Assembly: GCA_950295325.1 (NCBI GenBank)
Contig: OX485805.1
Coordinates: 29,499,501-29,563,500, forward strand
DNA length: 64,000 nucleotides
DNA from: Polytrichum commune
Lineage: Eukaryota > Streptophyta > Polytrichopsida > Polytrichales > Polytrichaceae
Reading direction: 5' to 3'
The notes under the pieces were generated by a model. That model made no database searches, was not told the DNA's origin, and worked only from the letters and a program-made list of their open reading frames with translations. A program made the position numbers and the translations under genes. How positions within the stretch are numbered: the first letter of the stretch is position 1; the number at the start of each line of letters is the position of its first letter. This document shows positions 11,482-60,353 of this stretch, piece by piece.

Positions 11482-14400
11482 ATGGTTTTTAGTGAGGGCG
11501 ATGGACACATCACGTTCGACAAGTTCGGCCGCAACAAATTCAATCTTTATAAGTTCAAGTTGGAGATAATGATGTTCACCAAAGATCTTTGGGAGATCGT
11601 GGAGGGTTTGGAGTTGCCGCCACTGTTCACGGCGAGCGACAAGGTTAAGAAGGTGTACGAATGGTGATGCAAAAAAAATTTGCCATCATTGCCATGAGTT
11701 TGGCGGACAAGGAAATGACGCATATCAAAGGGTGTAAATGACCGGTAGAAGCATGGAAGACCTTGTGCAACATTCACGAGACCAAAAACTTGTCCAACAT
11801 CTTGTTCGTAAGGCGCAAGTTCTTTACTATCAAGATGGACGAAGGCGCCGACATCCTCGACCATATCAACAAGGTAAAATCCTTCGCGGACAAACTCACG
11901 TGCTTGGAGGTGCCCATGAAAGACGATGATGTATTCATGACCTCGTTGGATAGCTTATCACCCTCGTTTAACCATTTGATCACCACATTGGAGACGCAAC
12001 CATTTTTGGAACTCACGTTGGACTTCATCACCGCACGCCTCATGTACGAGGTGTCCAAGAGGAAGGAGAATGAGCCTCGAGGAGGTGATGTGGCCATGTT
12101 GTCACCCCAACCTCGAGCGTTCGACAACAACGAACGACACCCCGAGGTGCTACAATTGTGGTAAGTTGGGCCACATTGCTCGCAATTGTCAAAACAAACG
12201 CAAAGTGAATGCAAAAATTACAAGTTTGAGCGATGATATTGCATTTATCTTGAGAGATGAAACATCTAACACCGCCGCCACTAGATGGATTGTTGATTCG
12301 GGGGCCTTGCAACACATGACACAACATAAGTATTTTTTTGACACTTACGAACCCGTCTTGGGTCGCAAAGTGCTTATGGGTGATAACGGCATTGTAGAGG
12401 CCGTAGACAAAGGCTCTATACTAGTAGAAACACGTGTGAAAGGTCGTGTGCGGAGCATTAGAATGCATGACATGCTTCATGTGCCAAAAATGCATTCAAA
12501 CTTGCTTTCGGTGAGCAAACTCATTTCGAGGGGTTTGAAGGTGCATTTCAACTCGTTGGGATGCGTGGTGAGGGCAAACAATGGGGAGATGTTGGCCGTT
12601 GTATAGTTGGAATATAATTTGTACCAATTGAACACGAATGTGATGAATGGGGCCGAAACGAGTTCTTTGGCGCGTTCCGATGGGAACTCGTATTATTTGG
12701 AATTTGGCACAAGAGGTTGGGGCATCTTAACGTGAATAGCGTGAAAATGCTTCAAAGCATGGTGAGCGGGATGGACGTGGGAGCGGGGAAAGGTGATGCG
12801 CATTCATTCGCATGCGAAGGATGTGTGAAGGGCAAACAAGCGAGGCAATCATTACTGACGGATGGAGATACCCGCGCCACGAAGATCTTGGAGCTCGTGC
12901 ATTCCAATGTATGCGGGCCGATAAAAATCATGTCCATTGGAGGCGCAAGGTATTTTCTCACATTCATTGACGATTTTTTGCATAAGATTCGGATGTATGT
13001 GCTTAAGGCCAAAAGCGAGGTATTGGCAAGGCTTAAAGAGTGGAAAACCTTGGTGGAGAGGCAATTGGAGCACGTAATGAAGGTTCTTAGGACGGACAAT
13101 GGTGGGGAACATGTGTCAAAGGTATTTGATGATTTTTTGAGCAAACATGGCATTGCATGGCAAACCTCATTACCTTACACGCCGCAACAAAATGGAGTGG
13201 CGGAATGATCGAACCGAACCATTGTGGAGATGGCGCGATTCATGCCCAACGCCTCGGCCATGAATTTTGGGCGGAAGCGGTGTGCAATGCGGTGTACATG
13301 CGCAACCGGTGTCCAACCAAGGCCGTGGATGGTAAGACACCCGAGGAGGTGTGCAGCGGGAGGATGCCGCACATCTCCCACATGCGCGTTTTTGGTTATG
13401 TGGCTTATACGAAGGTGCCGGATCAAAGGCAAACGAAGTTGGACGCGAATGACGTCAAGTGTTTATTTTTCAGATTTTATGAAGGCACCAAGGCGTATCA
13501 ACTCATTTGCTTGAAGACGAAGAAAATCATCAAGAGTCCAGACGTGGTGTTTTTCGAAGACAAAACAGATTTGAAGGATTGTCCAAGTGGGAGAGTTGAG
13601 GAAGTACCCGTGGTCAAGGTGGACATATCTCCAAATCGGACGTGGAGGACTTGGACGCGAGCGGCAACGTCTCGGAGCAAGACGAAGAGCACGACATCGA
13701 GGAGGATGCGGAGACCAACATACCGGCTGCAAAATCCACTCGTAATGGAGAGACATCGAAACTTAACCATGGTAAGAAAACCGCAACCAAACCACTTCCA
13801 CCACTGCAATATGGCAATGAAACCATGGGCAATTCTAGATACCCGGATAGGCCACGCAAACTGCTTGGGGAATGATTGAAGAGCCACTTTCCGAAACCCC
13901 AAGACAAAAAACATTCAAACATGACAATCGTTGGGGAACCTAAAAACTTGAGAAAGGTAATTGAATCGAGTGATGCAAGCGAGTGGGAGTTGGCTATGTA
14001 GAGGAATATGAATATCTTATAGCCAACAGCACGTGGGAGTTAACTCCATTGTCTAAGGGCCGCAAGGCCGTAAAGTGTAAGTGGGTGTTTCACACGAAGA
14101 AAGATACGAGAGGCGTGATAGTGCGTTTTATAGCAAGGTTGGTGGCCAAAGGGTTCTCGCAAGTGGAAGGTATAGTTTTTGGCGAAACATTTGCACCCGT
14201 GGCCAAATTCAACACCATACGAGCCATCCTCGCAATCGGGGCCGAAATGGGATTGGAGATGTATCAAATGGACGTCAAGACGGCATTCTTGAACAGCGAA
14301 TTGGACGTGGTCATCTACATGGAACAACTGGAGGGGTTTGTACAAAAGGGTCGGGAACATCTCGTATGCAAGTTGAAGAAATCGCTCTACGGATTGAAGC

Positions 14401-15513
14401 AATCCGGACGAGCATGGTACGAGTGCATTCATATATTCTTTGTGAATAGAGGCTTTATGAGGAGCTATGCGGACCATTTGTTGTATGTTCTACAAACGTG
14501 CGACTACATTGTGATTGTAACTATATATGTAGACGACCTCATTATCTTGGCAAGTAATGTGGACATGATCAACGAGTTGAAGTCAAGCCTCGAGTGCGAA
14601 TTCGAGATGAATGACCTTGGCGAGTTGCATTTCTTCCTTGGAGTTCATTTCGAGAGGGACATGAGGATACACACATTACCATGCATCAACAAAGCTACAT
14701 CGAAATCATTTTGGAGCGATTCGGCATGGGTGATTGCAAGCCCATCGCAACCCCGTTCGACACCAAAACCTCATTGGCAAAGCTTTCGGAGGAGGAGTAC
14801 AAAGAGCATTTACACGAAATGAAAGATATTCCGTATCAAGGAACGGTGGGGTCGTTGATGTACGCAACGGTGGCCACAAGACCGGACCTCGCATTTGTGG
14901 TAATCGTGGTAAGCCGATTTATGTCGAAACCAGGTCCGATGCATTGGATGGCCATCAAACGAATCATGCGGTATTTGAAGGGCACTTTAGATATGAGGTT
15001 GTGTATTGACGGCCAACATATCGGCATAAAAGGTTATTCCGATGCGGTGATGTGGAAAACCGTAGTTCCACCTTGGAATACATTTTCTTTGTTGGAGAGG
15101 GGCTTGTTTTGTGGAATAGCAAACGGCAACAAACAGTGACACAATCTACAATAGAGGCGGAGTACATGGCCATGAACCGATGCACGAGGAAGGCCATTTG
15201 ACTTAGGTAGCTAATGAAAGACATAGGTTGTGTACAAGAGGAGGCGACGACTATGATGTGTGACAACCAAGGTTCTATGACACTCGCCAAGAACCCCACC
15301 AACTATGATAGGTCGAAACATATAGATGTGCAACATCATTTTTTTAGAGAAAATATTAAAAACAAAATTATAGAGTTAGAATGTTGTCCAACACAATATA
15401 CGATAGCAGATATTCTAACAAAGACATTAGCGAGAGATAGGCATGAGTTGTTAAGTGAAACAATGAGGTTGGAGTACAATGTCATCTCGCAAAGTGAGAG
15501 TATTGGAAGATAA
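11482..15513 (+). pseudogene. Decayed Ty1/copia gag-pol polyprotein
   Basis: Gag starts at ATG 11482 (FDKFGRNKFNLYKFKLEIMM) and shifts frame near 11670 and 12150. Next come the CCHC knuckle CYNCGKLGHIARNC (about 12150), protease WIVDSGALQHMT (about 12285) and the GAG-pre-integrase segment from about 12700 (WHKRLGHLN). The integrase has FIDDF, RTDNGGEH and PYTPQQNGVAE, then a stop at 13206-13208. Reverse transcriptase (13983-14680) has AFLNSELDVVIYM, KKSLYGLKQSGRAWY and the catalytic YVDD (about 14527). RNase H (14681-15513) has VGSLMYATVATRPDLA, STIEAEYMA, NPTNYDRSKHIDV and ADILTKTL. The domain order PR-INT-RT-RH is diagnostic of copia. Multiple stops and frameshifts make it inactive. No 5' LTR is visible upstream; the 120-bp array sits there instead. 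Confidence 0.92.
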
Positions 15514-17906: not shown

Positions 17907-18422
17907 AATTTGGAACATTTCCTTCAAGGGTTATTCCCACCTCGACACAATAAACTTCATGTATAAGAGGAATCTGCAGTGCCACAGTGGAAGACATTTC
18001 TCACTTTTCATGTTCCCGCACTCGAACAAATCAACTCATGATTTCAAAGTCTTGGACTTGCAGATTCAATGGGGAACCCACATGAACCAAACTATATCCT
18101 TAGCTTATGTGCACGTTACGCTAAAAGCACACTTGTCTGTTAAGCAGAGTTCCCTTCACAATTATCAGGACGATTTGGAGTTTCTTTATTGAGACTTTAT
18201 TTGTTTATTATTTTTATTTGTTTATTTGTTTTGATTATTTTATTTTCTAAATTCTTTTTAAGGATTTGGAGTGTTTCGTTTAAGGAGAAGGGGTCACATT
18301 CCCATGACCTGATCAACGTAAGAAACTTAATTTATAAGAGGCTTCTACACTGCCGCAGAGGAGGACACTCTTACTTTTCACTTCCCCTCACATGCAAATT
18401 TAAAGCTACACTCGAACTGATC
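17907..18422. repeat. Tandem array of roughly 330-bp units, left part
   Basis: Landmarks recur in order: GATTTGGAGT, GAGGCG/GAGGAC, AACAAATCAAC, CATGATTTC, ACTTGCAGAT, AACCAAACTATATCC, and ATGTGCAC followed by TTCCCTTCACAAT. One unit runs about 17907-18173. The next starts at 18174, contains an A/T-rich filler (18188-18255), and is interrupted at 18422 by the LTR element. It resumes at 23105, is interrupted again by the LINE, and resumes at 26276. Confidence 0.7.
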
Positions 18423-18970
18423 TGTCGTGTAAATACCGATCGTGTGTCACTGCAGCTCAAGTACCAACCACCACTAACAAACAACACTAAAATATAGCAA
18501 GGTCACACATGAACAACACATCTCGACAAAGAAGGAAGATAGTAGAACACTCATAAGAGTTCTAAATCTCTTTTCAAATGCACATAATTAGTCAAACTAT
18601 CTCTCATTCCACCAAGGGAGAATCCAAGAGTGTAAGTAGATGGAGAAGAACTCAAGATTTATTGCAAATCATGCAATCTACACCTCACACAAGCTCTCTC
18701 CACACACTAACTTACAAGACTTGACTTGGCAAGAATGCCAAGCCAAGGAGGAGGCTTCTTACTTAGGAGCCTCACTTTCCAAAACTAAGGTTCATCCATC
18801 CAACTCTAAATGGATGAAGCCCACGGGATAAGGTGCGGCCGCCGACGCCGCATACCGTGACAGCTGTTGTGTAAATACCGATCGTGTGTCACTGCAGCTC
18901 GAGTACCAACCACTACTAACAAACAACACTAAAACATAGCAAGGTCACACATGAACAACACATCTCGACA
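18423..18970. repeat. Left terminal repeat block A-B-A'
   Basis: A (18423-18528) and A' (18865-18970) are 106-bp near-identical copies, starting TGTCG or TGTTG and ending CTCGACA. Between them, B (18531-18862) is near-identical to B' (22772-23104) at the other end of the element. Read on the minus strand, B contains AATAAA followed by a C/T-rich tail, as expected of an R-U5 region. A' directly follows the purine tract. The LTR is most simply A plus B, with an extra A copy here and the A part lost at the other end. Confidence 0.7.
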
Positions 18971-19289
18971 TGCCCCCCTTAGTTGACTATGGAGTCCCGC
19001 CAAGCAGCTAGGACCAACGCCAATCTAATGGTATGGATAATGAAGGATTGCTCCGCAACCAACTAGCGTGGCGAACGTCATCCCAAGAAACTGTAGGCTG
19101 GGTGCAATGTGAGCCCCATCCTTAATCGCCTCTGATGGTTGGCCATCGGATTCCACAGAATTAATTTCACCGCCTCATGTCGATTGGGTATCTAAGCCAT
19201 AACTTCCCATCTTCCATTTGGGCAGGCACAATATAATGAAAACCACACATGATCATTAAGTACGATTGGTGGGAGCACCAAGTACCGAA

Positions 19290-20287
19290 GATCCTTAACA
19301 TTGAGGACAACTCCACTGTCCAGATGGTAGAGAAGTCAAGGGTGGCCTCAAGCATGCCATGTGCCAACCACGTTGACACTGATTACACAAGAGCATAGTA
19401 GCCACCCCTTTCTTCTCTCCACACACAAAACATGGAAGACCCTCTGGCACGATGGCCAGTTCAGGATGAACTGTACCCTCAATGGGTAGATGACATGGGG
19501 CACAGTTTTTGGAATGCTCGCGACATTCCCTGCCATCCTTGTCTTCCAACAACAACAAACCACTCGGCAACACCTCCTTCACCCGAAGGATAATGCGCCC
19601 CGCCCTGACATCCAATGTCGTAGGCGCCTCATGTTGAAGATAAACAAAATCCCCTTGCCGAAATTTCTGCAATTGAGGTCAATAAGCACCACTGCGAATG
19701 CGTGCATAACGCAATGTGTCACGGTGTTGAGCAATGGACAAATTCTCCATGGCCATAGGCATGGCTCTATGGAAGAATTGAGCCCGCTCCTGCAAACACT
19801 CTGCCCAAATGTTTGGGTCATCCAAGTCCACAACAAGAGTTAACTATTCCCGAATAGAACTCGGGAGAATAGGCTCACGTCCATACAATAACTGATACGG
19901 GCTGTAGGATGCCAAAGAGGCTTGCCTACTAAATCGATAGCCCATAGCAATTTAAGGCAACATGAGGTCCCAATCCCGGTGGCTTCCCTGAAGTAATCCA
20001 TACTTCCTCAAACCATGCTTGGTTGTCTGAACAACCCGTTCAGCCAAGCCATCTGCCTCCGGATGATCCCGAGAGGTGGTACGGTGATCTATGAGCACCC
20101 CAGTGCACAACTCCTTAAAAGCACCAATGAACTCCCTCCCTTGGTCCGTCAACACCTCAGCCGGTGCTCCAAAACGTGTTAACACACGATCCAAAAAGGC
20201 GGCCGCGGCCAACTCTGCAGAGTTTTGGGGTAGAGCAACAAGCTCAATCCATTTGCTAAAATGCTCCACCATCATGCAATGCCACAA
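19290..20287 (-). pseudogene. Integrase core and C-terminus with PHD finger
   Basis: The integrase part begins HFSKWIELVALP and has LTDQGREFIGAF and EADGLAERVVQTTKHGLRKY, which supply the second Asp and the Glu of the DDE triad. It continues through YQLLYGREPILP and KFRQGDFVYLQHEAPTTLDV (integrase C-terminal barrel). It ends in a C4HC3 PHD finger (about 19293-19430): CFVCGEKKG, then LLCNQCQRGWHMACLRPP, then WSCPQC. PHD fingers usually read histone tails, so this one may guide integration as chromodomains do in chromoviruses. The integrase zinc-binding domain and first catalytic Asp are missing. In-frame stops near 19842 and 19951 show decay. Confidence 0.88.
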
Positions 20288-20290
20288 CTA

Positions 20291-21181
20291 TCATAGAGAC
20301 AACCACTGGTTATCACGATGCCTTTGCAATGAAAGGCATAAAACAACAGTCCATACTATGGTATGAAGATCCATGGCTTGGCCCAACACGAAGCGTCGTT
20401 GGCCCTTAGAAAGGTCGGGATCTGCGGTGGTGCCAGTGCGGAATCCTATAGCACGCTCCTGTTCGTCAGCCATTGGTTCGGTGTGGGTTTTGGTGTGAAC
20501 ATCCCACACCATACCTGGCCCCCGATCGCGAAAAGCGAATGACTGTGGAAATGTCATAAATGTGGGAAAGGCCCGCTGTGGTGCCCTTACTTTATTGACC
20601 AATGCCAACGGGGGTAAATCATCTCGAACAACCGGCAAAGAAGTCCGGTTTGGATCCAAGATGTCATTCACCTTTTGATCAAAAGGTGGAGGCACTGCAA
20701 AAAATGTTGCAGCTAAAGTAGATGACGGTGTGAGGTTGGTCCAAATCCACTAAGGCTGGTGGCCATAAAAACCAATGCTCGCGGCATCCACAAAAATGGG
20801 ATCTCCAAGGTGTTGACGAACATAATGATCGCCTTCCAATACCTTGTCCCGAGAGTTTCTCAACAAAGATACATTCTAAAAAATATACCCTGGAGGGGAA
20901 GGTTGGTGGAAAAACCACCACTGCATGAGGCGGATGAGGTCCCAAAATAGACTAGTCCTGGGATCCTCTAGTCCTCCGCCTGCTCCAGCACGTGAATGGC
21001 CCTGGCATGGCCATCCCGCAATCACCATATCCACTGGATCCAATTGTCGTAAGTCGGCCTCACTGATGAGTGTGACATCACGAGGGAGATGTGAAAAACA
21101 TCCATTAATGGCAGTCGGGTGTAACTGCTGAGGATACAATACCATCAACTGGTGAACATGGTGGCTGAGCGACACTTGCGG
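20291..21181 (-). pseudogene. C5-cytosine DNA methyltransferase domain of the retroelement
   Basis: One minus-strand frame runs from about 21181 to 20291 with only two stops (20876-20878 and 20750-20752) and no frameshift. Motif IV is GWPCQGHSRAG with the catalytic Cys, followed by GLEDPRTSLFWDLIRLMQ. Motif VI should read ENV, but the Glu codon is a TAG stop, leaving stop-NV. Next come GDHYVRQHLGDPIFVDAAS and WIWTNL. The C-terminal lobe has LPPLALVNKV, FAFRDRGPGMVW, EQERAIGFRTGTT (motif IX-like) and QRRFVLGQAMDL (motif X-like). The N-terminal cofactor-binding motif I was not found; the frame meets the inverted gag block at about 21180. The family transfers methyl groups to cytosine C5. Confidence 0.88.
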
Positions 21182-22771
21182 AAGCTTTCACCATTGTTGA
21201 GCAGTGTGATCGTGCCTTGTGTCAGCACGACGCCACTGACTTGGTGTCCATACTAATGGATTCTAGCAAATCCCGGAAGGTTCCGGTTGCGGCTGCGAGG
21301 TTGGCGGAGGCAGAGGTGGACAAGACCTTGCATTGTTGGTCTTGTGGGCAGGTGGGCCATGCTAAGAATGATTGTCCTTCGAAGCAAAGGCAAGCCCAGA
21401 CCGTCACTACTTCGAAGCGGAATCCATTTGTTCCCGCTAAGGGCTCGGCGAAGGGGGCGGGTAAACAATTATCCAAACAGTTGAAGTGTTCCCATTGTGG
21501 GCGGAACAATCATGCGGTAGAGAACTGCTTCGGTCTCCATCCAGAGAAACGTTCTTATTCCGAACGGGAAAAAGACGTTGGAGGCAAAAATTGGTGTCTT
21601 GGAGAAGAGGTTCAAAACTTTGGCGTCATCTAGCCAAATTTTGGACTCACCCTCTACCTCTGGCACTAAGGCTAGTTCATCCACTCCAGATTATTTTATG
21701 TTCGGAGCTTAAGGATAGGTGGTGAGTTCCGTGGCGGTGACACATGCTCAAACTGTGTCACGAGGCGCGCCTCCGACCAAAGGGGAGTCTGTGGACAGCT
21801 TACGTGCTGGGGACAATGGTCCCGCGGATCAGATTGGCCAGGCACGTCTGCCATTGTCTTTTGGTTTGGTTGATGTTGCCCAATCTATTAGTGCTTGTCA
21901 TTTGAGCTTGGAGGCTTCGAATCCGGCGACCGATGTGGTGCACACTTTGTAATCTAAAGTGTTGCACACTCTTTTGTTCACAGTAATGGAGTGGTCATCA
22001 TCGGATGTCCAACCCGCTAAGGTTTTTCCACCTAGCAGGTAGGATTTTGGAGGGCAAGGCATCCCCGCCTTCTTTGACTGTAGCTCAAGCCACCGCGGAC
22101 CTTCCTACCACGGAAAATTCGGAAGAAGCGGCCAAACGGCGAGCGAGGCTTGCGGCTGAGGCCATTGCATCTTTTAACGCACACACCTTAGATGGCCAAG
22201 ATCCAACCTCATCTTATGATTCACCAGCCTCTGTAGGCGCCGCTTACCTTTCAAATGTAGCTGCTCGACCTGCTTGCGAGCGTCGAGGCATTCGACCTGG
22301 CGTTGTACGGATGGTGAATGATTCTGGCATTTTGATGGTCAGTCGGGCTGGTGACAACCCTATTCGAGTTGCTCCACAGTGTGTGATGATGGATTCAGGA
22401 GCACAACCTGTTATGATCGGCAAAAAATTGGCGTAGGCATTGCAGTTGACAACCGACGACTTGGCTTCATGCCCATTTACCATCGTCACATCTATTGGCC
22501 ACGTGGAGCGGGCCACTGGTTATATTTGGGAGCCATTACAGCTTCGCTTCCAAGTGAAACTTGGAGATTCACCTGCACCTCTTCTTCTCATGTGTGTGGT
22601 GACGGATGCGACCAACTATGACATTTTAGTTGGTCAGCAAGCACTTTACCCCCTCGGTTTTGGTTTGGACAACTGGACTGAGGAGGCTTGGATCCGACCA
22701 GGTTGGTCAGCTGGAGACGGCCGTAGGGAACTTATTCCTGTGGCCTTTGCAGCTGCATTCTTGCCAAGTGA
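21178..22771 (+). pseudogene. Gag zinc knuckles and retroviral-type aspartic protease
   Basis: The plus strand encodes a gag end with two zinc knuckles, CWSCGQVGHAKNDC (about 21336) and CSHCGRNNHAVENC (about 21487). After several frame changes comes a protease: MDSGAQPVMIGKKLA (about 22387) with the DSG active site, a stop at 22434-22436, then YDILVGQQALYPLGFG (about 22617). The coding part runs straight into terminal repeat B' at 22772. Orientation is opposite to the methyltransferase and integrase, implying an internal inversion. The element may originally have been ordered gag, protease, methyltransferase, reverse transcriptase, integrase, PHD (inference). Confidence 0.82.
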
Positions 22772-23104
22772 GAAGGAAGAGAGTAGAACACTCATAAGAG
22801 CTCTAAATCCCTCTTCAAATGCTCACAATTAGTCAAACTATCTCTCACTCTACCAAGGGAGAATCCAAGAGTGTAAGTAGATGGAGAAGAACTCAAGATT
22901 TATTGCAAAATCATGCAATCTACACCTCACACAAGCTCTCTCCACACACTAACTCACAAGACTTGACTTGGCAAAAATGCCAAGCCAAGGAGGAGGCTCC
23001 TCACTTAGGAGCCTCACTTTCCAAAACTAAGGTTCATCCATCCAACTCTAAATGGATGAAGCCCAAGGGATAAGGTGCGGCCGCCGACGCCGCATACCGT
23101 GACA
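22772..23104. repeat. Right terminal repeat B'
   Basis: A 333-bp copy of the B segment at 18531-18862 in the same orientation, with only scattered differences. It ends GTGACA next to the GATC duplication. Part A is absent here. Confidence 0.8.
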
Positions 23105-23131
23105 GATCAATTATGATCTTAAAGTGTCGGG

Positions 23132-27824: not shown

Positions 27825-27907
27825 TCGCTACAGTGACAACCTCAACACCTAGCAAATGATTCATTCAACATCGATCTGACTTGGAATTCAACTTTTTAGG
27901 TATTGCA
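27820..27907 (+). repeat. 88-bp direct repeat, copy 2 (inside hAT)
   Basis: Second copy, differing at about one base (TATTGCAA in place of TCTTGCAA). It lies 355 bp from copy 1 and directly precedes the transposase frame. Confidence 0.85.
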
Positions 27908-27924
27908 ACGATGAATTTCCGTGC

Positions 27925-29067
27925 TTGGGATTTATTGATCGGGTGGCCAATAAGGTGTACGAGTGGTTGGGTAAATCAGTAATTCGTCGTGGAATTTTGG
28001 AGAAATTATTGCTTGCATTCCGTGAAGAGTCTCGTGCAACTTTACAGATCCATTCGGTGAGATGGTTATCCCGTGGCTTGGTCATGGAGAGATTGGTATT
28101 TTGTATGCCTGCAATTTTAGAAATTTGGGAGGTTGAAGAACCCACATGGTACAAGGATCTAACTTCTCTTCAGTTCCAATTTTTCATTCACATGCTAGCT
28201 GATATATTATCAGAGTTGAATAAGGTCAATCGCAAGTTTCAATTTGATCTTGTAGATATCACTAGCATAGCTTCTACGATTGATGTAACAATCAGCTTGT
28301 TTCGTAGACACTATCTGGGTGTAAGTTTTGGCCTGACAACCAAACACCTAGGGAAGTTTCTCCGCGAGATGGTACCCAATGGGCAAATATTGTATGTTGA
28401 TAGTTTTGGGTGTGAAAAAATGCATATCTTGCATTATGATTCCATGCCCGAGTGTGACGTAGGAGGCTCATTGGAGGCATGCATCATGTTGGGGAGGCAG
28501 TATGTGCAGAAGATCATCGATTCACTCAATGATCGATTTCCTGACTCGTCCATTTTCAATGCGGCCCGGCTTTTTAGCCCGAAGCACTATCCCGTAGATG
28601 AATTGGACAGAGGGACATTAACGGAACAATGGTTGAACCGGTTGGTGACACATTTCCGTTGGAGCGATGACCTTGTTAATCAATGCAATGCGGAATTGCT
28701 AGAATTCGTGGAGATGTTATGTTCCGTTTGTGAACGCCGAAGTATGCAAGAAGCTTGGGTTTTTTGTGGCAATGACCGGGAGTTCATGATTAATTGGCCA
28801 ACTATGATGTCGCTATGGCAAGCCATACTTGTGATCCCAACTAGCACTGTTGTTTGTGAGCGTGGTTTTTCAAAGCAAAATTGGGTTAAGAGTGAAAGGA
28901 GAACTAGACTCAACCTTGACACACTAGATGCTTTAATGAGGGTTAGTCTAAATGGGTTAGGAGTTGAATTCATGGATTGGGATAGTATTTTTGAATCTTG
29001 GAAAATTGGCACAAGAACCAACAAGCGTAGGGCATTATCACTAGAAGAGGTGGAGTTAGATGGTTGA
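27925..29067 (+). pseudogene. hAT transposase, C-terminal region
   Basis: An uninterrupted 380-codon frame. HSVRWLSRGLVMERL (about residues 42-57) is the segment typical of zinc-finger-862-like hAT transposases. The C-terminal dimerisation domain is clear: WQAILVIPTSTVVCERGFS, then QNWVKSERRTRLNLDTLDAL, then MRVSL. The N-terminal BED zinc finger and the first part of the RNase H-like catalytic fold are missing; their place is taken by the ETFA fragment and repeats. The frame is intact but the protein would lack DNA-binding and catalytic parts, so it is probably inactive. The start used is only the first in-frame Met; the frame has no clear upstream exon. Confidence 0.85.
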
Positions 29068-31400: not shown

Positions 31401-31564
31401 ACGAATTAGCATCAGAAACCCATATTTAATCATTTGTTGACCACGAATCAAAATTACCCTGCATTTTCAATTCAAAGACTGAACATCATCTTGTTTGTCA
31501 TTGATGATCAAGGGAACTCGGCAGGGAGAGGGTTTCTCACAGGGACCAGAATCTAAACTGCAAG

Positions 31565-34173
31565 ATGACAGACATCCAAATTCAGATGCCAGGCATGTTG
31601 CCACGCTCCTCCCTCAAGAACTACAACAACGGCAACACAGGTCACGACGATGCGGGAAGATCAACTTCCCAGGACGACCTAATCGAGCCAACATCCTCAT
31701 CTTCAGCCTGCGATTCCGCAGGAGGGTGGTACGAGACCTTGAGGCCGCGAATCTCCCTCCTGCAGAAGGCGGCGGCCGAGCTAATCAGCACATTCATCCT
31801 GGTGTTCGCGGGGTGCGGGGCCATCATGGTGGATGCACATCGGGGCGGGGTGGTCACGCATGTTGGTATTTCCGTCACGTTCGGGCTCGTGGTGGCGGCC
31901 ATGATTTACACCGTGGGCCACATCTCGGGAGCTCACATGAACCCCGCGGTCACCATCGCGTTCGCGCTCACCAAGCACTTCCCGTGGCCCCAGGTGCCTG
32001 TGTATGTGGCGGCCCAGTGCGCGGGGGGGATCGCGGCGTCGTTCGCGCTCGACTTGATCTTGCATCCCGCGGCGTTCGAGGGCGCGACATTGCCGTCGGG
32101 AAGCGACGCGCAGTCGCTGGTGCTGGAGATCATCATCACCTTCGTTCTCATGTTCGTCATCTCCGCCGTCACCACCGACAAACGAGCGGTGCGTGGTTTC
32201 TTCCTAATACTACCCTTCTCATCTATTCAAAATTGGCTTCATTCATTCATTTACTATTAATTTATTGCACTAAGAGCATCACCACCCATCCTACAAAATG
32301 CAGGGTGGATCATCCTCACAATAAGTTCAAGTCACCCGGTTTGCAAGCCGGGTGACCCACCCATGACTTGTATACAAGGTGATAAAACAAGGAAGAAACA
32401 AAAGCAAGATGAATCTCATTGGCACCTTGGAAATTGGAGAGGAATATGGAGTTTGTCCTTTGTTGTTTAGGGGGCTCCCTTTTTGTTTTGGGGCCGGAGC
32501 TCCGACTTGCAAAATGACCCCAATTTGCAAGCCAACCTCAACTTCCAAGCTGGCCCTACCAACAAATCATCCATTTTGCAGGATGGGTGGGGCACTTTTG
32601 CAAGCCGCCTCTCACAATATAAGTTCAAGTCATCCGTTTTTCAGGATGGGTGGTGATGCTCTAAGAGAGAAAACTTGTCCATTCCAATCATCTGTTAGAA
32701 CTTGTCTGTTGTAACTTATGGTGAGAAAATGCACAAATTAAATAAACTTAATTGGCCACCGGAGGTTTTGGGTTGCGAACCACAATCAAAAACCTTTGGT
32801 TGGCAACTGATTTTATTTATTTTATGCATTTTCTCATCATAAGTTACAACGGACAAGGTGCAGTAAATAATTGGAATGACATGATTGGAATCTAGTCCTA
32901 ATACGAAACGATAGGCATTCTCGAGCATAAACCTTTTTGGATATTTTTTGGAACATGTGTGCATTATAATTGTTATAACCGGTTGCTTCCAACAACTCTT
33001 GTGGGTTCTTTTGTCCATGAAGAGGACATTTCTTTTGTAGCTATATTTTACGTCCATGAGTAGACTTGTTATATCCGGTAATGGGCAAGAGTTGATAAAT
33101 GTCTCTAAGTTGCTCTTGCAAGTTGATCATCCACTCTCCTCTCGTATGTTATGTAGTGCATTATAGGCATGGTACCATATGATGGGTTACAATGCAATGC
33201 ATTCCCTACCCTTTTGTGTCCACACATTTGACTCCATAGAGTGAGCATAAATTAACAAAGGGAAGGTTTCCCACTCCACATAGAAATTAGTCCAATGGAT
33301 CAACTTGGGAGTTGTCTCCTCCCGTTAGCCATTGCTATTCGCACAATTTTGATTTTCAAGTTTGAGAATCATTTTGCTTGAGATTAGAAGATTATAGGAG
33401 GTCAAAGCAAAGATCCTCTTTCTCTTGAATTATCACATAAACCTTCCCAATCATGTTAACTAGATACTGAAACTAGAACAGCATTTATATTATGGGCACA
33501 CAAGGGAGCCCCTAATAGGTCAGGATGCTCAATTGACCTTAGGAGTTGTTTGTGCCATTGCTTGCAGTGCGGTGAATTGGCAGGAATCGCCATCGGCTCG
33601 ACGATTGCCTTGAATGTCTTGGTGGCCAAGTGAGTACTGTGACTTTCTATAATTTGGCACTATGAGTATTTTATGAAGACTATGAATCCACTTAAAATTT
33701 ATAGCATTTTTTTTGGAGTTGAAAATATGTGCATAGTGTGTGTGGATGGCGATCCTTGCTTCATAAAACAAGTACAAAATTTACCATTCCAATCCGAACA
33801 GAAATGGTATCATTGGGTTCCTTCGCTCTTTCCAAGCATGTTGCTCCTCCTCGTTGTGTTGTAACAAATCATCAATTCATTAGAAGCATGAGTTGTTGCC
33901 ACCAAGAATATGGTGCATTTGAAGTTTGCAGTCAGTAAATTTTGTGGATCACTGAATGTTTGCAACCATGGCAGGCCGATTTCCGGAGCGTCGATGAACC
34001 CCGCAAGGTCTATCGGTCCAGCAATTGCATCCTCAAATTACCGCGCCCTGTGGGTGTACATCCTCGGTCCAATTGTCGGTGCGGCCGCCGGAGGGTTAGG
34101 CTACCATCTCATTCGCCTCCCAGCGAAGGACATGGCCTGTAATCAAAAACCTGCCAAGAGCTTCCGCCGTTGA
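31565..34173 (+). CDS. NIP-type aquaporin (Nodulin26-like intrinsic protein), copy 1
   Basis: A membrane channel of the MIP family; NIPs pass glycerol, metalloids, ammonia or water depending on their filter. Three exons: 31565-32188 (ATG context [10 protein letters not shown]), 33568-33629 and 33975-34173, with clean GT/AG borders and phases 0 and 2. Exon 1 has a soluble N-terminus of about 67 residues, then transmembrane segments from [20 protein letters not shown]. The first half-helix box is [20 protein letters not shown]. Exon 2 encodes [19 protein letters not shown]. Exon 3 has the second box [16 protein letters not shown], whose Arg is the conserved filter Arg. Phe stands where nodulin-26 has the filter Trp (TFGL versus TWGL), by my alignment. 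The C-terminus ends KSFRR, a NIP-like Ser/Arg tail. Length is about 294 residues. The large first intron holds a MITE. Confidence 0.93.
32274..32661. mobile_element. MITE inside NIP intron 1
   Basis: The left end is GAGCATCACCACCCATCCT and the right end is AGGATGGGTGGTGATGCTC, a perfect inverted pair. The TAA target duplication is at 32271-32273 and 32662-32664. Length is 388 bp. It lies wholly in the intron and leaves the exons intact. Confidence 0.88.
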
Positions 34174-35174
34174 GTTGATTTAGGCATCCTCTGCATCATC
34201 CAATGCCAACAAATTGAATCACTGCGGTTGAACTGGACACTATAACCTCATCGACATAGCCCTAATTCAGCTCAGGCAACGGTGATGGGCGCTCTGTACG
34301 TAGAATGTCGGTTCCTGTCAGAAACTGCAAGGATTCGGGGAAGGATTAAGTTATATAATGAGATCCTGGCGGATTTGTACATTCATAAACCGTAAACCCT
34401 TGTGCTATCTGTGAACATAGATTGAAAGTGGAGGCTACGAAATTGATGCAAAGGAGGATGATGACCATAACAAGTGCGATACATCACTTTTTTCTATCCC
34501 AAGGTCAAATGTACATGGTTGTTAGTAGTAAACCTAATGCTCCGAGTTATTTGAAGATAGAGAGTCGTAATAGTAGTGGTGCTTGGACTTGGAATTCTTG
34601 CGACCAGTTTTTCCTCCCCTGGCCGCCAGCGGAGAAATGAGGATGCTCAGAGTTGGAAGGATGATGATCAATGATGACTTTCCTCACCTCGTCGACAGGG
34701 GAGTTGGTGTAATTGACTCAATTTGTGAGACACTCATTTGTAATAAAAATTTCGCGGAGTTGAAGATTGCTCTTCGCACATAAATACCTGTTCTACAAGA
34801 TTGAGTTTCCAGTGATGCGGAGTTGCAATGATACTTGGGTAATCCTAAGAGTTCATGAGTCCATTTGGGGAAGGAAAGAAATGAAACAAAGAATAACATT
34901 TAGGTTGTTTTATGTTTTACCCACCAGTCCAATACTGTGTCCGGGGAGATTTTCCTAGTGTTTCCAAGTCTAACTGGTTAAATGTTGTGATCTTTCGGGT
35001 GCCCTTCATTTTATTGAGGTATATTCCATAGATTCCTCTAAAAGGATCCCTAATTTTCCTGAAGTCTTGAACTTCAAATGGTTCTTTGTCACACTCAACC
35101 GGCTCATCTGTAACTAGCGGTTAGTTCTCCCTGTTCATAGGTCCAATACAATCCTAACAGAGGCGTGGTGAGTC
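34174..35174. other. NIP copy 1 downstream region
   Basis: About 34240-34500 (with ATTGAAAGTGGAGGCT and GATGCAAAGGAGGATGATGA) resembles 40010-40290 downstream of the second NIP gene, so the tandem duplication includes 3' flanking sequence. No other gene is recognised. Confidence 0.55.
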
Positions 35175-35177
35175 TTA

Positions 35178-35676
35178 GGGTCACTTCACACACGAGCCAA
35201 GAGCCGTGACCATGAAATTGTGGGAGTCCAAAAGAAAGTGTCCAAAGGCCGTCCCAAGACATCTCCAAAATCATGTAGTGTGGTCATGACCCTCAAGTGT
35301 AGTGTGAAGTCATATGTGGCCGGGCCCTCAACCAAATGCTATTTCAATGAGTTTCTATTCATGCGGGTCCTCACACATGATAAAAATAGAATAAATCAAC
35401 GGTTGTGAGCGTTCGGAATGCCATGGTCTCCCGGTTTTGTGTTAAGCCTACCTCCAAGAGGTGGTTTTTGAAAATAGTCCAAGTGACCATGAAACATGAT
35501 TCATTCGATGCCATGTAGGAACCCATGTACACTCTACATCCATTTTGCATTCACATACTCCATTGGTCCCATAAGCGTAGTGTGAAACTTACTTGGACTA
35601 GCTTTGCCTTTTCCACCAATGGGAGTGCTTAAAGTGTAATGGTCATGGGCTCTCAATCTCATGTGTGAAGTGGCCC
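35178..35676. mobile_element. Harbinger-like MITE, GGGCCACTTCACAC family, copy a
   Basis: The left end is GGGTCACTTCACACACGAG. The right end, reverse complemented, is GGGCCACTTCACACATGAG. The TTA target duplication is at 35175-35177 and 35677-35679. Length is 499 bp. It shares internal blocks such as AAATCATGTAGTGTGGTCA with the copies at 56084 and 60354. Confidence 0.85.
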
Positions 35677-37918
35677 TTATTAGGCTTATGTAATATTAAG
35701 ATCCATTTGGACATGCTACATTGATGGGCTTATGTTTGAACTTTTAAACATAGGTAGATTAAACAATGAGAGCAAAATGTAGATGGGTGAGTTTACACTA
35801 GGGTCGATGACCAAAGAAACTCCTGAAATGAGCGATCAAATTGATCAAGAGTAAAGATTTGGACCCCAAGGATTTTACATCAGAGTTTAGGGTCAAATAT
35901 ATGAAAAAATGAAGTGGCGATAAAGTGTCATCACTTTCCTATCAAATCTCGACAATCCCCTTCAAGAATATACTCCTAGCTTGAAATGCCAATCCTCAAG
36001 TTTGGTTCCAATCTTCAGTTCAAGAGTATGGTCTATTCAAGGGGTGTTTGAAGGGGTTTTCAACCTCACGTTTCTTGGACCCAAACCCTAAAATAAGCTT
36101 GCCCTAAGTATATGATATACTGAAGGTTGATTGTTCACTAGCAACATAGATAGTGACTGATTCAAAGTGAAGCTAGGAATGCATTGGAGTGAGATAGACA
36201 TGGAAAACAAAGATAGCACACAATTCATAATTGGTCATTCATCCAATCTAATATAAAGATCATTGAAACGTGTCACAATTTTTCTTTCATGGAGACATCA
36301 TCCATAATACCTAGATTTTGTCCATGAGTGAAGTAATCGGTCATGTTTCATAACGAGCTCGAGCGACAAGTAGGTGGATGACTTCCCTCTTTTGTGGGGC
36401 TCTTGTGGTTATTTAGTCCAAAGATGGTGATAAATAGGTTGAGAGTGTAGGGTTGGGAATGTGATATAAGGTAGAGCGTGCTATATCCAACGCCCCACCC
36501 AAGAGCAACACCTATAAATGCCTCCTAATCTTGTACCCAGAACACGCCTTAAAATATTTAAATGTCTCCGACGCAAAGTGGAGGTGGATTTGGGTGAAAA
36601 ATATGGTGGTTGTGGGAAAATGCAAGGTTGGTTTTGGGCGAAAGTGGGATTGGATTTGAGCAAGCATCGGAACATAGCTAGGGGTGGCTCACTTATAAGT
36701 ATTTATTAAGATCCCACATGTAAAACTTATAAGAACTCAATTTCTTATTGAGTAGAAAGTTGGTTTTAGTGTGGGGGTGGTTTTGGGCAAAAGGTGGGGG
36801 CGGTTTTGAGAGAAAACGGGGTTTGTTTTGGTTGAGTAATGGGGGCATTTTGGGCGAGTGCCGAAACAGTTTTGGGAACCGTTTGCAATGAAAATAGTGG
36901 GAATCTAGGGACAAATTTAGGAAACTAGGATAAGTGATTTCAAAATTTTATAATATCTCCATATGATGTGCAATTATTTATTTATTTTGTTTCTACTATG
37001 TCTAAGCCAATTTGCTAAGCCAATCATACCATACCACTAATCCCAACGAACTACCAAAAAAGGCTAAATAGCTTAAAGTGCTGGTTAAAGCTCCCTCTAC
37101 CTTAGTGTTACAGAATTATAGAGTAACATGCAGGGCGTTGAGGGAGCTCAGGAGAGATTACTTGCATACAAATACAATCAAATGGAAGCTTGAAGATGAT
37201 CACGAAATTATAACAAAAGGCCATGTGGAAATTATTTATTATCAACGACAAATATGAACTTCCCAATAGGGTGATCCCACATGTCTACTGCTCATAGGTA
37301 CAGTTGATGACAATCTGTTAAATCAGAACACACATTTAAGTGCATGTGACCCCATCAACTGTGACATGTTGTTTACTGATTCGGGTATATTAAGCCAATG
37401 GTGTGTACACAAAGTAAATAACAAATAATATAACACCAGAAATGTGATCTTGTTACCTTGTAAAAAATCCAATGTTTACTGAAGTGAAAAGAAATGCGCC
37501 AAACTTTAAGGTTTAAAGTAAAGGTAAAAGTAGAAGTACAATTAAAGTAAAAGTAAAAGTAAAAGTAAAACCAAAGCATAAACAGAACCTTCAATGAATA
37601 AAGTAAAAGTAAAGTTGGAAACCTAGCTACTATATAAAGGCGACCATTGTTATATGTTGGTAAACCTTTTGTATTTTCCTGAACAGAATCCCATATCATT
37701 AACCCACCAATATCATTGCTAAAAGCGTTGAGAGAAATCAACGCCCTCATTGTTATTTGTATCAAGACCCAGAGTTTTTTGATTACTTTGTAATTTGAAG
37801 ACTAAACATCATCGTGTTTGCCATTAATAAAGAGAAGGCAAGGGTTGTCGGTTTGAAGTTTGTCACAAAGTTCAGAATCATCACTGCAACAACCAACGAT
37901 CGACACAGAATAACACAA
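35677..37918. other. Upstream region of second NIP gene
   Basis: No gene is recognised. Around 36760-36840 a G-rich run repeats GGTTTTGGGC-like words. About 37510-37610 is an AAAGT-rich simple repeat. Close to the gene, AAACATCATCGTGTTTGCCA (about 37803) resembles 31480-31500 upstream of the first NIP gene, so 5' flanking sequence was duplicated as well. Confidence 0.5.
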
Positions 37919-39639
37919 ATGGCAGACATCCGAATTCAGATGCCGGCCGTGCCTCCCGCTCCTCCCTCGGGAACAAAGTGGGAAGATTATCTCGTACCCA
38001 TGATGACCCAATTGAGCCGAATTCTTCAGCAGATCACCCCGCAGGGTCGTCGTACGAGACCCGAAGACCTTGGATCGCTCCGCTGAAGAAGGCAATGGCC
38101 GAGCTGATCAGCACATTCATCCTGGTGTTCGCGGGGTGCGGGGCCATCATGGTGGACACACTGCGAGGCGGGGTGGTCACACATGTTGGTGTTGCCCTCA
38201 CGTTCGGGCTCGTGGTGGCGGCCATGATTTACACCGTGGGCCACATCTCGGGAGCTCACATGAACCCCGCGGTCACCATCGCGTCCGCGCTCACCAAGCA
38301 CTTCCCGTGGCACCAGGTGCCTATGTATGTGGCGGCCCAGTGCGCGGGGGCGGTCGCGGCATCGTTCGTGCTCGGCTTGATCTTGCCTCCGGCGGCCTTC
38401 TTGGGCGCGACGTTGCCGTCGGGAAGCGACGTGCAGTCGCTGGTGCTGGAGATCATCATCACCTTCATTCTCATGTTCGTCGTCTCCGCAGTCACCACCG
38501 ACACACAGTCGGTACGTGATCGCCTCCTCCTTAATTATACCCTTTTCATCGAAACTTGATTAAAAGGTACCACTAAGGTAGATGACTTTTGAATGGTCAC
38601 TTTTTCCGACGAGCCCACTTGTCCTAGGATATGAAACACGCAGTTAGTGCAAGGTGATAAGCAAATTCAAGTCGAGACCGTCGCCACTTTCCTCACAATT
38701 CCTGGAGCCCTGAAGAACATCTTCGTCATTATCAAAGTGAAGGTTCTCGTGCTCATCAAATTGGTCATATACTGTAGGTCCCCCACCCAAGACATGAGTT
38801 TAAGAAAGATTGGACTACATGTTAAGAAATCGTTGATTATTCGAGGCTCAGATGGTCAACGTAATTGTTCAAGAAGAAACTCAAAAAAATCTTCACTTTG
38901 GTAATGAATGTAAAGATATTCATACGAGCCATGTAATCATATTCATGAAAACATTTGGTGTGAAAACCATTTGGTGACTAGCGCCATTTGAAAACCCCCA
39001 TTTGAAAACCTCGGTCCCCCCTTGAGTAGGTTCATTGGACTTATGTGTTGTTTTGGTCTGCTTTGCAGCACGGCAAATTGGCAGGAATCGCTGTTGGCTC
39101 CACGATTGCACTAAATGTCATGATGGCCAAGTAAGTTCCATAACCGTAACTTGCATTTGGACAAACATTCCGATCAATGCATGCATGTGCTGTACGAGAT
39201 GATTAGCAACTCCAAATTGTGCATGTAGTCATTTGCCTCATACTTCTTGTTGATCCCAGAAATCATGTTGACTATTGAACTTAGAATGGAAAACCGGAGG
39301 ATGTCAACATGTAACCGGTTGGACATGCAAACACTAGGATGTCAACCGGTTATGTCCAAAAATCTCCCCGATCACTGATCTACGTTAAGTAACTCTCTAA
39401 TCATTGAGTATTGGCATGTTTGCACCCGTGGCAGGCCAATTTCCGGAGCATCAATGAACCCCGCAAGGTCGATCGGCCCAGCAATGGTGTCCCTGAACTA
39501 CCATGCCCTGTGGGTGTATATTGTCGGTCCAATTCTGGGTGCTGCAGCCGGAGCATTAAGCTACAGTCTCATCCGCCTCCCAGAGGAAGAAGGCTCCGCC
39601 TGTGACCAAAAACCTGCCAACAGAGAGCCCGGTTGCTGA
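37919..39639 (+). CDS. NIP-type aquaporin, copy 2 (N-terminal reading-frame break)
   Basis: Tandem paralogue of the gene at 31565. Exons end at 38511, then 39069-39130 and 39435-39639, with the same splice positions and phases as copy 1. The channel body is intact: [39 protein letters not shown], then [20 protein letters not shown] and the end REPGC. The conserved start ATG at 37919 (MADIRIQMP) is in a different frame from the channel: its frame stops at 38086. The channel frame is open from before 37978 with no ATG before 38095 (MAELIST). So either a small indel truncated the soluble N-terminus, or translation starts at 38095, or there is a sequence error. The C-terminal tail differs from copy 1 and lacks the KSFRR end. 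Function is uncertain. Confidence 0.85.
38636..38790 (-). repeat. Family C related repeat in NIP copy 2 intron 1
   Basis: AGTTAGTGCAAGGTGAT, CATTATCAAAGTGAAGG and GTAGGTCCCCC match 3250-3390 in the last DET1 intron. The copy is partial. Confidence 0.45.
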
Positions 39640-49121: not shown

Positions 49122-52100
49122 CGGAGGTTTTGGGTGTGGTGGAATGGCAGGGCACGGCATCCCAGTGTATTGGGTGGGAGCGCCCTTGTGGGAAGCAGCA
49201 GCAGCGGCAGCAATAGCAGTGAGGTATTGGGGGAGAGAGTGCAGGTCGCGGGAACCTCAAGTGGGGTGCCACTAAGACGTCGGGAATGGATGCCACCTGC
49301 GAAATGCAGCGTTGATTCTACTTCTTCAGGTTTGTTTGTTTCTTTCTTTCTTCACTCGCCTTTTCATTCAATTTGTGCGTTGTACCCTATAGTAGTCTCA
49401 AGGATAAGCTCTCTTGAGCCTCCCATGCGGGTCAATTCAGCTTCATTTTTGTGCAAGAGGGAGGGATGTCCTGTCCTTTTCCCATCGCCATATGCAAGCA
49501 TTTGTCAGTGTTGCCATTAAATTTTTCCCTGAAATTTTCCCAGGAGAATTTTTATCTTAACTTACCGCCATGGCTTCCACCTTACATCCGCTGGAAAAAG
49601 GCGAGGTGGAAAGTAGAAAGGATAAGCTCTCCTGAGCCTCCCATGCGGGGAAATTCAGATTGTCCTGTCCTCTCTCCTCTTCCCCATCGTCACATGCCCT
49701 TCGCAAGCACTTGTCAATGCCGCCATTAAGTTTTTCAAAAATTTCCGTTACATGTCCTTCTTCATTTACTGCCATGGCTTCCAACTTACATCCGCTGGGC
49801 GATGTGGAAAGTGTCAAGGAGAAGCTCTCTTGCGAGAGCGCGGTTGCTCGTAATTCAGTTCTCTTTTTTTCTCATTCTGATGGCTTATTGGGTGGATGTC
49901 TTCTCTCCTCTTCCCCATAGCCACATGCCCTACGCATTTTGTCAATGTCGCCATTACGTTTTCTGATCATTTTGAGTACATTTTTTTCTTCACTTACCGC
50001 TATGGATTCCAACTTACATCCGCCGGGAAAAAAGGCTAGGTGGAAAGAGAATTTTCCTTCCTTCGGGGTTTAGGGTTTTGGATTTTATCCGCCAAGAAAT
50101 ACTCAGGTAGCTGATTGATTTCTGAGGATATCCAGGCGCTCAAATTCCAGACACATTGTTCGACTATAGGTGCAGGCAATGACAAAGCTGTACACTTTTG
50201 CATGTAATCCATGTGGTCCAGAATCCAACAAGAATGCTAAGGCGGGGGGCTTCTCGTGGGCTTTGCACTGTAGAAAGCATGGTTTTCCGTCTTTTGTTTC
50301 AGAAGATTTTCTGAATTACTCTGAAAGATGATGAGTTGAGTCAATGAGCAACCTAAACTCAGTTTTACTTGGTTGTATCTATTCTAGCATCAATAGGAGG
50401 TCAAGTATTCGTCCTGGAAGACAATTCTTGTAACATCCATGTCACCATGGTCACGACACCCTCCCTGTGATCATCCTAAAGAGGACTTCACAATTCCTTG
50501 ATATTGTTAGGATACGCGTATTTGAGGATATTTTTTATTTCGATATCATTCATGTCTATATACCATGCAAGAGACTTCATACCTAGATAAAATCACCCTA
50601 AGCATCAATCTGGTATCAGGCTGGTACTGACCCAACCAATAACTCGGGTATACAAAGATTCTCTCATTTAGTGATAACCACAAAGTATCGATATTTGTGT
50701 GGTGTTACAATTCTGATACAGGTCGAGTAGGTTCTTGGATACCATTATTGATATTGTGTATCAATACCATGCTTTCACCTCTATACTGATCTAACATTGG
50801 TCATAACCAATTTTGAACTGGTATCAACTTCTTTTTTTTATACCACCCGGGTATTAAGATTATACAATATTTTTATATTAAACGGTATTTGAGGATATGC
50901 TTGTTTACCATACACGTCTATGTACCATGGAAGAACCTTCAAACCTAAGTATAATTACTCTAAGTACGAAATTGGTATTAGACTGGTATTGACCCAACTA
51001 GTTACTCGGGCACAAAGATTTTCTCATTTCATGATACCCACCAAGTATTGATATTTGGTTGGTGTTACAACTTTAATAGCAATTGGGAGGCTCTTTAATA
51101 CCACTATTGAGATCGTGTATTGGTTTGGGCTTGCAGATCCTTTGCTAGTAAGGGCAGCCAGGAAAGAGAAAGTTGAGCGGCCCCCAGCATGGATGATGAG
51201 GCAGGCAGGCCGGTATATGGCATCCTACCGCAAATTGACAGAGAAGCATCCATCATTCCGGGAGAGGTCTGAGAACACAGACTTGATAGTGGAGATTTCA
51301 TTGCAACCATGGAAGGCATTTAGGCCAGACGGTGTGATCATATTCTCAGATATTCTGACACCCCTTCCCGCGATTGGTATCCCGTTCGAGATTGATGAAT
51401 CCAAGGGCCCCATCCTGGACACTCCTATCAGATCAGAGGAAGGTCTCAAAGCACTGCACAGTATCGATCTCGAGAAAGTCGACTTTGTTGGAGAGTCTTT
51501 GAGCATTTTGCGACAGGAGGTATATATGGTCCTCAAGTACGATTGCAAATTTTTATATAATATAGGGCCTGTCTTGGGCTTGAATGTATCCATAGTCTTG
51601 AGAATTGCAAAATAGTGAGAAACTAATTTGACCTACATGTCTCGACTATACAAACTAAACATCTGACTTATTGTGGCATTAAAATTGGTGTGCCATGTTA
51701 ATTAGAGTGGTCTTCGTGAGTTGTCATGTAGCACCAAGCGTCATATGACACCCTCTCTAGCCAAGTGATTGTAAGACAATTATTGTGGGTCGATGATGAA
51801 TAGAGCGGACCACACTAAATCAGATGTTTGACATACTAGTACCGGGTTAGGATTGAACTTTTTTTATTTCATTATGGTGATTTATCTGGTTGCCACTACT
51901 GTGATTTTTATATATGCTTATACTGGAAGCGAGGAATGAATCATTTAGACTCTTTGGATCAGGTTGGAGATGGAGCAGCAGTGCTTGGATTTGTAGGCTC
52001 ACCATGGACCTTAGCAACTTACATTGTGGAAGGTGCAACCACCCGAACTTACACAAAGATCAAAAGTATGACACATTTGCAACCCGAGTTGCTGAAATCC

Positions 52101-56080: not shown

Positions 56081-56083
56081 TAA

Positions 56084-59929: not shown

Positions 59930-60353
59930 TGGTACATGGCAAGGCTCGTTACAGTAGTTGGAAATTGAACACCAAAAAAAACATGTGTAACAATGAGAGT
60001 AGACTACGTGCTCAAAATATAGACACCACTCTAGGTTCAACAATTAATACTCTTTAAGAGATATGTGATTTCTAAAACCTAGGATAGTAATCATGTTCTT
60101 CATAAAATTCCTCAACAAGGTGACATTGTTTTGTTGATCCGAAGTTTTTTTAATAATTTTTGGACATTTTTGGGCATAAATTAAAAGAAAATCAATTGCA
60201 AGAAGTAGTTGATCCAAACATTTAACATCTTATATGTGAATCCCAAGCGGACATTCACACATATTCAATATGATATTGTTAATTCGAGACAAATGGAAAG
60301 ATCTTCATGAAAGGTGTACATACCCATGGCTCCGGTCAGAACTGGACATCTCA
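59930..60353. other. Family C copy and spacer
   Basis: About 59930-60060 carries the family C order (ATTTGAGTGGTACATGGCAA, ACATGTGTAACAATGAGAG, GTGCTCAAAATATAGACACC). The rest is A/T-rich without a gene. Confidence 0.45.

Follow-up and report, generated by a model that had tools for sequence, protein, structure and literature searches.

The closest published counterpart of the element analyzed here is, by its description, KnitGypsy-Dnmt3 of Klebsormidium nitens, a retroelement in which gypsy domains are combined with repeats of the DIRS kind (de Mendoza et al. 2018, PMC5890265). The same paper describes SymbioDIRS-Dnmt3 from Symbiodinium, which carries a DNMT3 methyltransferase and a tyrosine recombinase within A-coding-B-A-B repeats, and a 2025 survey, citing the 2018 work, mentions DNMT3 in streptophyte retrotransposons and describes DRM as restricted to streptophytes, with charophytes having it too (PMC12344493). 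We analyzed a 64,000-nucleotide stretch of the Polytrichum commune genome (contig OX485805.1, positions 29,499,501–29,563,500; hereafter, the window), in which an earlier note had proposed, at 18423–23104, a long terminal repeat (LTR) retrotransposon pairing a C5-cytosine DNA methyltransferase (MTase) with an integrase that carries a PHD finger. Long-frame copies elsewhere in the genome bear this pairing out: they belong to a multi-copy Ty3/gypsy-type family whose integrase carries a PHD finger and which also encodes a DNMT3-like MTase. The copy in the window is dead, with internal deletions and a partial inversion.

Compared with KnitGypsy-Dnmt3 by description only, the present family is of the same kind in its coding domains, MTase and repeats: both encode, along with domains of the gypsy type, an MTase related to DNMT3, and both show DIRS-like repeats and purifying selection on the MTase. 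They differ in host, and in the Polytrichum family the MTase follows the protease in the first open reading frame (ORF1), which closes with a UAG-CARYYA stop, the integrase carries a PHD finger (the term ‘PHD’ occurs zero times in the main text of PMC5890265), and 4-bp target duplications are documented. SymbioDIRS-Dnmt3, as described there, likewise combines a DNMT3 MTase with repeats in A-coding-B-A-B order, but its tyrosine recombinase contrasts with the DDE integrase and target duplications found here. Among the open-licence papers listed in literature searches, which leave out most subscription papers and bioRxiv, none dealt with gypsy elements of land plants that carry both MTase and PHD. 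A looser analogy exists with chromoviruses, which also have a chromatin-reader domain at the integrase C-terminus, whereas the present family has a PHD finger in place of the chromodomain, an additional MTase, and split repeats.

Using Pfam profiles, we found three domains in order on the minus strand of the window: an MTase (PF00145; match at 20921–21085, 43.5 bits, cut-off 22), an integrase core (PF00665; 20060–20281, 39.6 bits) and a PHD finger (PF00628; 19298–19432, 42.6 bits, cut-off 24). The MTase frame runs on past the PF00145 match to motif IX/X-like residues near 20350, and a protein search returned 15 relatives, alignable over about 280 aa with up to 71% identity. The C5-MTase and the C4HC3 PHD finger read from the sequence by the earlier note were thereby confirmed, the latter with its ligand spacing intact by reading. 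Its integrase with DDE residues held for the core, which covers profile positions 26–102 of 102, although this copy lacks the zinc finger and the first catalytic D. A single minus-strand frame, with seven internal stops and zero frameshifts, extends from 21187 to 19295. On the plus strand, 21169–22832 contains a gag segment with zinc knuckles (one CCHC knuckle above the Pfam cut-off, a second by eye only) and a weakly scoring retroviral-type protease (19.9 bits, under the cut-off of 28.2) that is 76–83% identical to the protease (PR) of relatives with a PR-MTase protein (P0010: 83%; P0015: 76%). Reverse transcriptase (RT) and RNase H (RH) were absent from the window copy in domain scans and in its mapping to own-genome copies, and an Rfam scan of the window gave zero matches.

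To place this copy, the whole assembly (64 contigs totalling 407.8 Mb, with seven large ones of 42–78 Mb) was scanned with the PF00145 profile, which gave at least 123 scored matches from 352 candidates, 18 of them in open frames of at least 1356 aa. Not every match is an element, since the one at C2:4703606 is a host DRM gene with permuted order, clearly different from the element MTase; element status was checked for the fetched loci only. Among these, the MTase model matched in 20 of 20 (19 places, because L021 and L044 are the identical place), and a tree of 19 loci (L015 was too short) comprised two subfamilies, that of the window MTase including L017, L018, L019, L021/L044, L037, L039 and L043. 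In the ten own-genome copies picked for plus strand and long ORF1, the gene order was gag-PR-MTase-TAG-RT-RH-INT-PHD (INT, integrase), with the RT-to-PHD frame missing in one, and models built in this analysis found RT, RH, INT and PHD in 9 of 9 copies scanned. The order gag-PR-MTase-RT-INT-PHD expected by the earlier note is therefore that of the long-frame copies and not of the window, where gag-PR is inverted onto the plus strand and RT is deleted. The same arrangement, in one frame and on one strand, occurs in L001 (CADCWO010000201.1), a contig with gag-PR-MTase, TAG and RT-RH-INT-PHD. ORF2 of L001 contains PF00078, PF17917, PF17919, PF17921 and PF00665 in the RT-RNase H-integrase order of gypsy elements, and the window integrase is 84% identical to it over 236 aa.

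ORF1 closes with TAG followed by CARYYA (CAATCA, CAACCA or CAATTA) in all ten long-frame copies, and the same context was found in L043, L044, L048 and L001. In tobamoviruses, UAG-CARYYA serves as the motif for readthrough of type I (PMC5382211). A PR-MTase-RT arrangement within one predicted frame was not found among 163 proteins and pieces (158 database matches, two from L001 and three window pieces). On this arrangement, ribosomes would mostly stop at the TAG, so that the MTase would be made at the level of Gag and packaged with it, and readthrough would yield less RT and integrase, at the level of Pol.

The element MTase is DNMT3-like by sequence profile and by structure model. A profile of 28 aligned sequences, with little or no variation in the P-C-Q and E-N motifs, matched DNMT3A best among solved structures (66.8 bits), followed by DNMT3C (60.9 bits) and DNMT3B (58.1 bits), with lower matches to HaeIII (42.2 bits) and a DRM (38.7 bits). 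The structure model of the L001 MTase (predicted local distance difference test, pLDDT, 85.2) had only DNMT3 enzymes among the 50 structure matches listed; its template modelling (TM) score was about 0.8 when normalised to targets that are isolated catalytic domains, and 0.52–0.58 when normalised to the query. Motifs I, IV, VI, VIII and IX/X of the L001 enzyme are in canonical, not permuted, order. An origin from phage or bacterial MTases was rejected, as 13 IMG/VR loci split from the retroelement MTases plus DNMT3A (Shimodaira-Hasegawa-like approximate likelihood ratio test, SH-aLRT, 99). IMG/VR scans with P0005 and with the INT-PHD alignment gave zero relatives. The branch for a single origin of the 66 retroelement MTases versus the rest had a support of 79.

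In three pairs of copies with intact frames, the ratio of non-silent to silent substitution rates (dN/dS, Nei-Gojobori) of the MTase was 0.17, 0.11 and 0.11, and in the same three pairs plus a fourth that of INT was 0.31, 0.03, 0.02 and 0.15. By these values, the coding domains of the element, including the MTase, are mostly under purifying selection; in cross-subfamily pairs, silent sites are near saturation (proportion of silent differences, pS, about 0.7). As a separate observation, silent divergence between L037/L038 and L039/L040 was 0.21 in the MTase, 0.03 in INT, and 0.08 in PR and RT, a pattern that could reflect an exchange of the MTase between lineages.

A DNMT3-like enzyme packaged in this way would methylate new element DNA de novo, and perhaps the target also. 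The strongest competing explanation accepts the anatomy and gives the MTase another role, acting on host target chromatin or RNA or serving as a structural part of Gag, with the observed selection reflecting that role; we give it a serious, if minority, chance. RNA methylation and further roles are discussed by de Mendoza et al. (PMC5890265), whose Klebsormidium enzyme was inactive in yeast, a result called inconclusive there. The MTase also diverges faster than INT-PHD between the window and L001 (60% vs 84% aa identity). Set against such a role are the profile and the structure model, both closest to the DNMT3 DNA methyltransferases and not to DNMT2, and the near-invariance of the P-C-Q and E-N motifs.

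At the other end of the coding region, the PHD finger forms the C-terminus of the integrase, and its eight zinc ligands are invariant in 17 aligned proteins. Its best solved matches were PHF12, CHD4, ATXR5 and the demethylase Lid, and the PHD fingers of several of these read unmodified H3K4. A chromodomain was not detected in L001 ORF2 (zero matches at E 0.01). A structure model of INT-PHD was poor (pLDDT 64.7) and was left unused. The finger may tether the integrase to a state of the histone H3 tail, much as the integrase chromodomain is thought to tether chromoviruses.

The ends of the element proved to be unusual. In the window, the repeats read X-Y-X'-...-Y' on the plus strand, which corresponds to A1-interior-B1-A2-B2 on the minus strand. 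Repeat A1 (22771–23104, minus) forms the 5' end and starts with TGTCACG, whereas B2 (18423–18528, minus) forms the 3' end and terminates in CACGACA. Between the interior and B2 lie B1 (18865–18970, minus) and A2 (18529–18862, minus), and they meet at the palindrome ACAGCTGT (18860–18867), which is the same in all nine own-genome copies examined and in L001. A2 is 95.8% identical to A1 (13 of 333 aligned bases differ, with 2 gap columns) and B2 is 96% identical to B1 (5 of 106 bases differ). The purine tract AACTAAGGGGGGCA (18971–18984, minus) stands directly before B1, and each of the nine own-genome copies examined likewise has a G-rich tract that ends at B1. GATC is duplicated at 18419–18422 and 23105–23108. 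Tract and duplication are both real, as the earlier note had read them, and so are its terminal repeats, 96% alike; the two plain LTRs that it took them for are not there.

The ends were compared in 12 own-genome copies, each fetched as a two-part stretch (the ten long-frame copies plus two more). In ten of them the direct repeats are split in the manner of DIRS, the 5' part holding A1 and the 3' part B1-A2-B2, and all ten had an exact 4-bp duplication beside TGTCACG and CACGACA (GAAG, TTAT, TAGC, CATC, ATTG, ACTT, TGTC, GATG, GAAG and TCAT), making 11 of 11 with the GATC of the window. For the first nine of these duplications, some BLAST edges had missed the exact border by a few bases. A1 and A2 were 94.6–100% identical in nine long-frame copies, eight of which were at or above 99.3%. 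The B1/B2 pair is also present in L043 and L044, which were fetched as single stretches, and the L001 contig contains B-GC-A as one unit. The split repeats of these 10 of 12 copies stand in place of the two identical LTRs of a plain LTR element, and together with the duplications at A-start and B-end they led us to drop the plain LTR reading. The family thus has the A-interior-B-A-B repeats of DIRS/Ngaro elements but not their tyrosine recombinase without target duplication, having instead a DDE (rve) integrase and 4-bp duplications. The integrase, rather than a tyrosine recombinase, would insert DNA that has A-start and B-end as its ends. Such DIRS-like ends with integrase-type duplications call for a replication route outside the usual LTR and DIRS schemes.

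A variant of the LTR reading, in which B-A is the LTR, starting after the purine tract, and the window ends were permuted by an odd insertion, would account for the tract ending directly at B1 and for the B-GC-A unit of the circular contig L001, which a B-A LTR would likewise produce. We consider it very improbable, as 10 of 12 copies begin with A1 and finish with B1-A2-B2, the duplications in 10 of 10 lie at A-start and B-end and not at B-start and A-end, and none of the 12 copies has B-A at both ends with duplications there.

The split-repeat element can be followed in detail in how the window copy was broken. Its pieces are 87–93% identical in DNA to the own-genome copies L037/L038 and L039/L040. 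Relative to L037–L040, the window has lost the 5' untranslated region, the gag N-terminus, the end of PR and the part of the MTase with motif I. Comparison with L037/L038 shows a further deletion of about 2.4 kb, which removed RT, RNase H and the N-terminal part of the integrase and left a joint (20274–20295, minus) marked by two adjacent stops at 20293 and 20290. The remaining MTase (20295–21175, minus; internal stops at 20878 and 20752) borders this joint and has 89% DNA identity to L037 and L039. The inverted block (21154–22756, plus) holds the C-terminal part of gag with the zinc knuckles and most of the protease, and matches the reverse strand of L037 4386–5986 at 87% DNA identity. The inversion joint (21154–21175) is an overlap of near-identical sequence of about 17 nt, for which a strand switch or end-joining in the window copy suffices. 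The differences between A1 and A2 and between B1 and B2, compared with the near-identical repeats of the long-frame copies, indicate that the window copy is older and dead.

Two further ideas on the history of this copy were rejected. An ancestral head-to-head gene order, suggested by the plus-strand gag-PR, was ruled out by L001 and L025/L026, in which the genes lie on one strand, and by the mapping to L037–L040, which places the inversion in the window only. A footprint of CpG deamination in the in-frame stops was unsupported, because a change from CGA to TGA is, by reading, plausible for a single stop of the seven (TGA at 19681), and the CpG ratio of the MTase-INT-PHD part (0.587) equals the window mean (0.585). 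That the window MTase is a captured host gene fragment, or a separate gene beside an integrase relic by chance, is suggested by its position abutting an integrase core without RT beside the inverted gag-PR block, but is extremely improbable, given that long-frame own-genome copies and L001 hold the MTase between protease and RT, that PR-MTase proteins occur elsewhere, that the window MTase is 89% identical in DNA to L037 and L039, and that the host DRM gene is clearly different. The finding that the earlier note named as fatal to its claim, an absent profile match or a segment missing from all other copies, was thus not made.

Taken jointly, the anatomy established here and the mechanism proposed from it are probably correct, although several points weigh on the other side. 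Two of the 12 copies (L023/L024 and L046/L047) show no split repeats within the stretch fetched, and because long frames were the criterion for choosing ten of the 12, the rates do not describe the copies at large. Beyond the TAG, no further stop interrupts the fetched stretch in 8 of 10 copies, but later stops occur in L023 and L033, and L030 lacks the RT-to-PHD frame that measures 898–947 aa in the other nine. A fourth MTase pair gave a dN/dS of 0.67 on very few changes (pS 0.03). The KnitGypsy-Dnmt3 enzyme gave no methylation in the yeast assay, considered inconclusive by its authors (PMC5890265), and the histone target of the PHD finger is a guess.

More tentatively, and in our view less likely than not, these elements could form a hybrid group of the green lineage that spans algae and land plants: DIRS-like split repeats would be combined with a DDE integrase acting at the palindromic B/A junction ACAGCTGT, possibly opening a closed circle there, and a Gag-level DNMT3 with a Pol level reached by UAG readthrough would let PHD-steered copies arrive pre-methylated. 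Self-methylation and histone targeting are both predictions. With an MTase and a putative histone-reading finger in one element, whether the element uses DNA methylation for itself becomes a direct question, and the many copies, including long-frame ones with repeats 94.6–100% alike, make self-serving DNA methylation testable in a living plant.

Relatives of the element were then compared across genomes, with the best 120 of 395 matches taken from the integrase search. The 163 proteins and pieces comprised 25 with PR-MT (MT, MTase), 31 with RT-RH-INT-PHD, 24 with MT-INT-PHD, 18 with RT-RH-MT-INT-PHD and 34 with INT-PHD; the remaining 31 fell into smaller classes, one of them with none of the domains. 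A protease lies upstream in the same protein in 5 of the 15 relatives of the window MTase (P0005, P0006, P0010, P0014 and P0015). Marchantia polymorpha MARPO_0008s0049 (P0035) is a gag-PR-MTase protein, showing that the family occurs in at least one land plant, and green algae contributed an INT-PHD protein of Haematococcus (P0041) and an MT-INT-PHD protein of Volvox (P0078). The green-algal and metagenomic RT-RH-MTase-INT-PHD proteins share with the present family the union of MTase and integrase-PHD in one polyprotein, but in these proteins the MTase is placed after RNase H and ahead of the integrase, and it forms a clade of its own. In the MTase tree, this type and its truncated forms are one clade (32 rows, support 100/99), whereas the PR-MT type, including the window, is another (31 rows with Marchantia, 96/67; 28 rows, 100/98), and three MT-before-RT proteins fall outside both. 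The MTase site is thus either protease-RT or RNase H-integrase, with the two placements in different clades, which may reflect one relocation or two captures.

Two relatives carry bacterial labels. L001 lies in a cyanobacterial metagenome-assembled genome and has 127 bases repeated at its two ends, and P0003, a protein of a eukaryote-type retroelement, is labelled Candidatus Obscuribacterales; both placements probably represent contamination and misnaming.

Near the window, another copy of the same subfamily, L043 (C3:29563401–29573400), has its MTase match starting about 5.8 kb to the right of the window end; it has the stop context TAG CAATTA, a B1/B2 pair and a broken frame. Other mobile elements have left remains inside the window, those of a Copia-type element at 11980–14822 (RVT_2, 218.6 bits) and those of a hAT transposase at 27880–29064 (PF05699, 28.5 bits). 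A repeat of about 500 bp is present in three copies that are 87–88% alike (35171–35679, 56080–56571 and 60350–60852), one of them opposite in orientation to the matching pair. Two MIP (aquaporin) genes, NIP-type by reading, occupy 31508–32257 and 37831–38556; they share stretches that are 92% identical (31760–32195 and 38083–38518) and are probably tandem host genes. These genes, the DRM gene and a genome of this size with seven large sequences are in keeping with a land-plant host, although DRM occurs in charophytes as well; by these features alone, a streptophyte alga would be an improbable host. An exon of uroporphyrinogen decarboxylase (PF01208, 132.9 bits) lies at 51052–51612, with several repeated stretches near it, including 50477–50762 and 52447–52726, which are 78% alike. 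In the assembly at large, the first 3 kb of seven small contigs (L052, L053, L055, L056, L057, L059 and L060) have a GC content of 58–69%, compared with 42% in the window, and these contigs are perhaps foreign to the assembly.

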